From a virus: a stretch of DNA of 21,466 nucleotides. The stretch is taken from positions 1 through 21,466 of the IMG/VR virus record IMGVR_UViG_3300027805_000095. One strand, given 5' to 3'. The notes beneath the pieces are model-generated. The model saw only the letters and a list, made by a program, of their open reading frames with translations, had not been told where the DNA came from and made no database searches. This document shows, piece after piece, positions 8,094-15,450 of this stretch (its first letter is position 1; every line of letters begins with the position of its first letter). The position numbers were made by a program, and so were the translations under genes.

Positions 8094-8288
8094 TTATTTA
8101 AAAACTGTTCTTAATAATGCAATTGTTTGTGATAGTTTTTTGTTTGTTTCTTCAAGTTCGTCCAAACTTAAATCTTTAACAATTGCTGAAGGTGTAGAAT
8201 CCTCAATGGTTATCTCTTTTCCTGAGCCTAATTTAATTGATAGTTTGAAATTGTCATTGTTATCAATGTTCCAAGTAATATCTTCCAT
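8094..8288 (-). CDS. Small protein of unknown function, first gene of the replication unit
   Basis: This 64-residue protein starts at the ATG at 8288 (MEDITWNIDNND). A GTG at 8324 would extend it by 12 residues, but that extension reads through the strong hairpin at 8303-8348, so I reject it. The protein has a beta-rich first half (FKLSIKLGSGKEITIED) and a helical second half (LDELEETNKKLSQTIALLR), possibly a coiled-coil dimer. It is followed 3 bases later by the initiator-like gene. The leader upstream holds two hairpins with complementary loops, so this gene is the likely first target of any RNA-level control. No family recognised. Confidence 0.7.
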   Translation of the reverse strand: MEDITWNIDNNDNFKLSIKLGSGKEITIEDSTPSAIVKDLSLDELEETNKKLSQTIALLRTVFK

Positions 8289-10858: not shown

Positions 10859-10942
10859 AACCCCCTATCAATGCTGTCAACCGCCAAGTTAAGCAACATC
10901 AATAGAGGGTTATTTTTTAAGTTTCTTTTCATCTTGGCGGTT
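10859..10942 (-). ncRNA. Pseudoknot-like leader RNA of the helicase-methyltransferase unit
   Basis: On the minus-strand RNA, 10911-10894 pairs with 10876-10859 in an 18 base-pair stem without mismatch, counting four G-U pairs. The 17-base loop (10893-10877) contains CUUGGCGGUU, which is perfectly complementary over 10 bases to AACCGCCAAG at 10942-10933 upstream. The interleaved pairing is the layout of an H-type pseudoknot. The G-U pairs become mismatches in plus-strand RNA, so it favours the minus strand, the direction of transcription. The stem ends 16 bases before the ATG at 10842. The 10843-10977 gap holds no gene. Confidence 0.65.
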
Positions 10943-10952
10943 ATTTCGTTGG

Positions 10953-15179: not shown

Positions 15180-15450
15180 GTTGGGCGCAATACTAACGAA
15201 CCAACTCATCAAGAGCCAACTCGAACAAAGTAAAAGCCAACTCTTTGTTTTTCATTTGCGACCTATGATAACCGACTGTTATTTTTAAATCCAATTCTTC
15301 CGATATTAAAATTGAAGGGTAAGCCCGACAAGGCGATACGCTTTGACCACCTGTTATGGCAGGTCGTTCAGTGTCCCATTTTACGTTGGCTTTTATTTGT
15401 TCTTTCATTTCATTTAAGTCCATAATCCAGAATAAAGTACTGCGCCCAAC
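15180..15450. repeat. 15-base inverted repeat flanking a small gene
   Basis: GTTGGGCGCAATACT (15180-15194) is matched in inverted orientation by AGTACTGCGCCCAAC (15436-15450), with one mismatch in 15. The pair encloses the 76-residue gene. The right copy is also one end box of the hairpin at 15443-15538, so the unit has cassette-like boundaries. GCCCAAC and GTTGGGC fit the RYYYAAC and GTTRRRY end boxes of integron attC sites. Confidence 0.6.
15193..15423 (-). CDS. Hypothetical small protein in the cassette-like array
   Basis: This 76-residue protein (MDLNEMKEQIKANVKWDTER...) has a central cysteine (SPCRAYPS), a KITVGYHRSQMKNKELAF segment (about 48-65) and a final FELALDELV helix. I recognise no function. 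Its base composition is clearly less AT-rich than neighbouring phage genes. It is enclosed by the 15-base inverted repeat at 15180 and 15436, and its stop codon lies within the left copy. The ATG at 15423 comes about 20 bases after the end of the preceding hairpin, with no promoter visible in between. Confidence 0.75.
   Translation of the reverse strand: MDLNEMKEQIKANVKWDTERPAITGGQSVSPCRAYPSILISEELDLKITVGYHRSQMKNKELAFTLFELALDELVR

Follow-up and report, generated by a model that had tools for sequence, protein, structure and literature searches.

A candidate class of kissing-hairpin leader RNAs preceding replication genes in Bacteroidota phages

The two leaders in the window

The stretch of DNA analysed here (the window) comprises 21,466 nt of a virus record, IMGVR_UViG_3300027805_000095, in which an SF2/DEAD-type helicase gene and a DNA methylase gene follow one another on the minus strand. 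An earlier note on this DNA had proposed that the helicase-methyltransferase unit is led by a single pseudoknot-like RNA, in which a 5' strand (A) pairs with the loop (A') of a downstream hairpin, P2 (strands B and B'), giving the order A-B-A'-B'. A second copy of the element was located in the window by a structure scan. The features of both copies are as follows.

10981-10979, minus: TTG, putative -33 element, 18 nt upstream of the -7 motif (sequence)
10960-10953, minus: TACATTTG, putative -7 element (TAnnTTTG), shared with relatives (sequence)
10942-10933, minus: A, 5' pseudoknot strand, AACCGCCAAG (sequence)
10932-10912, minus: A-rich linker from A to B, 21 nt (sequence)
10911-10894, minus: B, 5' side of P2 (18-bp hairpin), AACCCTCTATTGATGTTG (sequence, folding)
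10893-10877, minus: P2 loop, 17 nt (sequence)
10888-10879, minus: A', P2-loop segment complementary to A, CTTGGCGGTT (sequence)
10876-10859, minus: B', 3' side of P2 with a weak U-run, UUUAACUAUUUAU, behind it (sequence, folding)
10931-10845, minus: upstream ORF (uORF), 28 codons, MKRNLKNNPLLMLLNLAVDSIDRGFNYL, overlapping the structure (sequence)
10842-9478, minus: SF2/DEAD-type helicase led by copy 1 (Pfam Helicase_C, DEAD, SNF2-rel)
9473-8466, minus: DNA methylase (Pfam N6_N4_Mtase)
8399-8306, minus: copy 2 of the element (structure scan; score z -5.1)
8288-8094, minus: small gene directly behind copy 2 (ORF)
8090-7461, minus: replication-initiation-like protein of the copy 2 unit (phrog_19658, E 7e-8)
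7458-5623, minus: Toprim primase/helicase-like protein of the copy 2 unit (Pfam Toprim_2)

The 18-bp stem, 17-nt loop, 10-bp loop complementarity and 21-nt spacer described in the earlier note were exact in every coordinate and count, and the four G-U pairs of the stem in minus-strand RNA were confirmed. The P2 hairpin of copy 1 spans 10911-10859 and leaves 16 nt to the helicase ATG. Folding gave -29.8 kcal/mol for the minus strand (z -4.4, equalled by 0 of 200 shuffles) and -25.2 kcal/mol for the plus strand (z -2.5). The comparative data given below support the proposal that the leader was shaped as minus-strand RNA. Scored for A-B-A'-B' pairing, the 131-nt region of copy 1 reached -48.8, whereas shuffles averaged -5.8, none of 1000 dinucleotide shuffles matching it (best, -28.1), and it was the top-scoring tile among the 1294 tiles of the window.

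Both P2 and the A:A' helix of copy 1 (10-11 bp) are longer than in relatives, and the P1 stem that surrounds A in most relatives is absent, which makes copy 1 an H-type pseudoknot variant of a kissing-hairpin class. By our own estimate a 10-bp helix within a 17-nt loop, with 5 + 2 nt free, is tight and looks feasible. The U-run behind P2 is weak, consisting of just UUUAAC. TTG/TAnnTTTG is the Bacteroidota promoter consensus, and the motif match places the putative start near 10947, just before the 5' pairing strand, as had been predicted. The uORF encodes a peptide beginning MKRNLKNNPLL, and its stop lies 3 nt before the helicase ATG. A leader-peptide role was rejected, since in two leaders of the window type, L336 and L357, the structure is retained although TTG replaces the uORF ATG and the reading frame stops after 12 codons; as it is not kept in all window-type relatives, the uORF is probably incidental.

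Copy 2, which heads the replication-initiation/primase unit of the window, has a P1 stem, GTTGT[CGGCAT]ACAAC, at 8399-8384 (minus). Its P2 lies at 8346-8306 with the loop ATGCCG at 8329-8324, and is followed by a U-run and then the ATG at 8288; its promoter is only TAAAATTTA. Elsewhere in the window, two G+C-rich hairpins, ATGCGGC[TTGGCGCAGT]GCCGCAT and AGCGG[CATTGCGCTAAA]CCGCT, occupy the intergenic region 15545-15430 (minus) before the gene 15193-15423. Their loops pair over ~10 bp and the pseudoknot score is high on both strands, with no TAnnTTTG and no U-run in the region.

Conservation and distribution of the element

Viral contigs yielded helicase loci with 137 distinct leaders. Few are near-identical, and the diverged ones show the order A-B-A'-B' with unrelated sequences; the same order was found behind a TAnnTTTG motif in dozens of unrelated leaders. 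In most diverged leaders A is the loop of a small 5' hairpin, so that the element is a pair of kissing hairpins. The single structure first described is thus present as described, but it is one member of a class whose usual form is a hairpin-hairpin kissing complex. Among the 23 distinct promoter-bearing helicase leaders, 13 have the element with differing sequences, compared with 3.6% of shuffles, and 10 keep the gene without it. Loss of pairing beside a retained gene had been named as evidence against the proposal; these ten leaders do not refute the pseudoknotted-leader reading.

Covarying homologues, which the earlier note had suggested looking for, do occur in other Bacteroidetes phages, and in window-type leaders both helices are kept through two-sided changes. 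Window-type relatives with the loop letters CGCCAAR/YTTGGCGG were located by pattern search; the matches listed by a CGCCAA..TTGGCG scan were mostly chance, but L336 and L357 were recovered. Five pairs are altered on both sides between the window and L289. In a MAFFT alignment of 8 sequences, where L336 and L357 seem to be off by one column, pairing holds in 81.8% of cells; with the partner slid by 1-3 columns it falls to 40-52%. The same alignment gave 7 two-sided pair changes and a covariation score above all 500 shuffles; the slid control at -2 has more two-sided changes, and thus their number alone is not decisive. Peptide and DNA similarity searches of phage records with the leader gave no match.

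Pairing is also kept in leaders of homologous genes, as in L129/L122 (before MKTLF..) and L115/L117 (before MSKDLFQ..). Here another complementary stem has taken the place of all or part of the P1 stem around an unchanged kissing loop, GGTCAG, and on their sequences these pairs are clean examples of compensatory change. In L142/L427 the pairing is likewise kept through two-sided changes. Taken together, the comparison supports the reading that the helicase-methyltransferase unit has a pseudoknotted RNA leader behind a Bacteroidota-type promoter.

The architecture of P1, A-rich linker, P2 with U-run and with a loop that pairs with that of P1, and start codon was seen in 45 non-redundant Bacteroidota phage leaders. 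A loop-blind selection (TAnnTTTG promoter, any P1 hairpin, any terminator-like P2, ATG) gave 49 non-redundant leaders. In 34 of them the two loops match in an uninterrupted Watson-Crick stretch of 6 bp or longer; the corresponding shares are 1.6% for cross pairs and 2.1% for shuffled loops. Conversely, TAnnTTTG lies upstream of 26 of 45 structure-only hits scoring -40 or better (background 2.5%). Thresholds were set after examples had been seen; the promoter and loop tests are independent of the selection features. The loop sequences differ between copies, even inside one genome. As a structural class alone, kissing-hairpin leader RNAs can be accepted with high confidence.

A feature of the DNA (a cruciform, an origin or a protein site) or accidental complementarity might produce similar patterns, and the location in the replication module would suit it. 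Such an explanation is highly improbable in view of the shuffles of copy 1, the promoter link and the strong strand bias, with 55 of 61 non-redundant hits on the transcribed strand. The P2 registers, which contain 74 G-U against 5 A-C, point the same way, although this bias is partly built in because the finder counts G-U as pairs.

By the window helicase, the nearest annotated phage relatives are Flavobacterium phages (68% identical), and close helicases were found on contigs assigned by binning to Lutibacter and other Bacteroidetes. Three clear copies of the element occur in phage hattifnatt9-1, two in FCV-1 and one each in phages 11b, Polaribacter P12002L and Bacteroides B40-8, the last preceding a pRha gene with CCGCCAA/UUGGCGG as in the window. 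The class is thus spread over phages of Flavobacterium, Polaribacter and Bacteroides and many metagenomic relatives. OP947161 carries a weak copy only, and a convincing copy was not found in Nonlabens phage P12024S. A limited sample of 716 kb of Bacteroidota MAG DNA gave five hits with a promoter, and in no case did an ORF follow. Genes behind the copies encode helicases, DUF6291/primosomal, Lin1244_N initiation and Prim-Pol proteins, an HTH_36 replication protein and NUMOD4/HNH nucleases, besides several small genes of no known family; in most classifiable cases they are replication genes.

Three observations were made alongside. In hattifnatt9-1 (L423, 5301-5372, plus strand) a strong kissing-like structure, GCGGTTA/TAACCGC, lies among minus-strand small genes and without the usual promoter spacing; it may be another copy or chance. 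OP947161 (L424) is named a Rhodobacteraceae phage, has a G+C of 0.29 and a helicase 66% identical to that of the window, and its host label may deserve a check. A more sequence-conserved subfamily (L158 4900-5004, L009 6380-6489, L163, L002 and similar) lies ~2.5 kb downstream of the helicase start and has a GTAAAACATTGT linker and a ACTGCGAG...CGCAGT inner stem.

Anatomy and possible roles

The P1 hairpin begins a median of 5 nt after the promoter motif, which puts it roughly where transcription would start. Most P1 loops have 6-8 nt, and often they are paired throughout. The linker to P2 has a median of ~17 nt in relatives and is A-rich; AAAACATT recurs in 5 copies, where 0.12 would be expected. 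In 7 of 45 leaders P2 has AGUA opposite GAA around an inner stem (0.065 expected). This arrangement is typical of bulged-G (sarcin-ricin-like) internal loops, one of which may form there. Behind P2, U occupies positions +1, +2, +3 and +4 in 80, 78, 67 and 73% of cases, although no U-run was required.

Of the mechanisms considered, leader attenuation is the likeliest, with P2 as a cis-acting terminator clamped by the 5' hairpin, and we give it an even chance. RNA polymerase would start at the TAnnTTTG promoter and make P1 at the extreme 5' end, then the A-rich linker and the terminator-like P2, whose loop would kiss the P1 loop; in copy 1, with the P1 stem lost, A would pair with the P2 loop directly in an H-type pseudoknot. 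The loop-loop helix would clamp P2 to the 5' end, and P2 would act as the leader terminator (attenuator) heading the replication transcription units. Only some polymerases, or those altered by a factor from phage or host that recognises the folded domain, would read through and so be admitted to the helicase, initiation and primase genes. Termination, control of readthrough and any sensed factor are what we infer here; the architecture, the private complementary loops, the U-run and the position before replication genes can be read from the leaders themselves.

The U-run, promoter link, loop complementarity, two-sided changes and replication-unit position were counted in favor of attenuation, and the weak U-run of copy 1 against it. 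P2 can form even when the kissing loops are paired in full at both ends, so kissing may have no bearing on termination. A classical attenuator that works by alternative pairing was rejected, as pairing of an antiterminator with the 5' strand of the terminator was not enriched over shuffles (native -6.98, shuffled -6.50, s.e. 0.41).

The position of P1 at about the transcription start suits a 5' stabiliser, in which the P1-P2 kissing complex would form a compact cap against 5'-end-dependent or 5'-to-3' decay of replication mRNAs and leave an unstructured A/U-rich start region to ribosomes. The A/U-rich stretch before the ATG is indeed free, and the loop letters are irrelevant, the fold alone being kept. 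A cap has no need of a strong U-run abutting P2, and we regard this role as rather unlikely, though a serious rival. An ATG lies 6-30 nt downstream of P2 in 45 of 61 non-redundant hits; this constant short distance also fits a role in translation or stability, which tells against attenuation.

A translational role would make the fold an operator, bound by a phage replication protein (for example a single-strand DNA-binding protein) that represses or permits translation, or would let the pseudoknot itself activate. In T4, gp32 acts at its own leader pseudoknot, and in IncB/IncI plasmids a pseudoknot activates translation. The element stands before replication genes in most classifiable cases, and copy 1 has a weak match to PK-repBA (E 6.5e-4, below the gathering score). 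Against this, P2 ends far enough upstream to leave the ATG uncovered, leader uORFs are not conserved, and antisense TAnnTTTG motifs are not in excess over the leaders (6 against 6.15 expected, weaker promoters lying outside this motif test). We consider an operator unlikely, though it too is a serious rival. The 5' hairpin and the 3' terminator hairpin with its U tail also resemble stable small RNAs, and an RNA of ~95 nt ending at P2 might act in trans, for example as a decoy, with the downstream gene expressed by readthrough only. This is very doubtful, because an ORF of at least 40 codons begins within 30 nt in most cases and the loops differ between copies of one genome.

We tentatively entertain, as less likely than not, a general device that keeps nothing but architecture and complementarity constant. 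Each copy would have a private kissing code, so that one structural signal would switch all replication units of a phage together without cross-talk among its leaders. The class would offer a handle on the timing of DNA replication in little-studied Bacteroidota phages. RNA surveys seem to have missed it, probably owing to a sequence under almost no constraint, and searches based on complementarity instead of sequence can uncover RNA classes so far missed.

Comparison with known RNAs

At gathering scores, Rfam 15 gave no match for the window or 16 related loci. Below threshold, copy 1 matched PK-repBA (RF01089) with 26.6 bits against a threshold of 45, and PK-repZ (RF01087) with 19.3 bits against 44; neither family matched in the 16 related loci. 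The PK-repBA match is probably due to a shared UUGGCG loop. In the repBA/repZ leaders of IncB/IncI plasmids, as in the element, a UUGGCG loop pairs with CGCCAA in a cis pseudoknot ahead of a replication gene. In repBA the complement of the loop lies downstream near the rep start, and control involves translation of a leader peptide together with an antisense RNA. In the element the complement lies upstream, behind the promoter, and there is neither a conserved uORF nor a detectable antisense promoter.

Hairpin loops of 6-8 nt that can pair fully are shared with RNAI/RNAII, CopA/CopT and the HIV DIS, in which kissing is between molecules, whereas in the element it would be within one leader. 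The T4 gene 32 leader likewise has a pseudoknot before a replication gene of a phage. It serves one gene, is bound by its own product and has no terminator, while the element heads varied genes and has a terminator-like P2. HK022 put RNAs are also structured RNAs right behind phage promoters; they are conserved in sequence and act on polymerase to pass later terminators, whereas the element itself carries a terminator-like hairpin.

Purine and lysine riboswitch or attenuator leaders share the position between promoter and gene, a loop-loop contact and a terminator, and the AGUA/GAA bulged-G-like internal loop in a subset of copies is a further likeness. Unlike in these riboswitches, no conserved ligand pocket or antiterminator was seen and the loops are not conserved. 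The literature searched, which did not cover a 2017 survey of 224 RNAs, held no description of the element, and the class is apparently both widespread in Bacteroidota phages and undescribed. Judged by its sequences, the element appears to be a structured leader RNA, which is a known kind, and to be unusual in conserving complementarity without conserving sequence.
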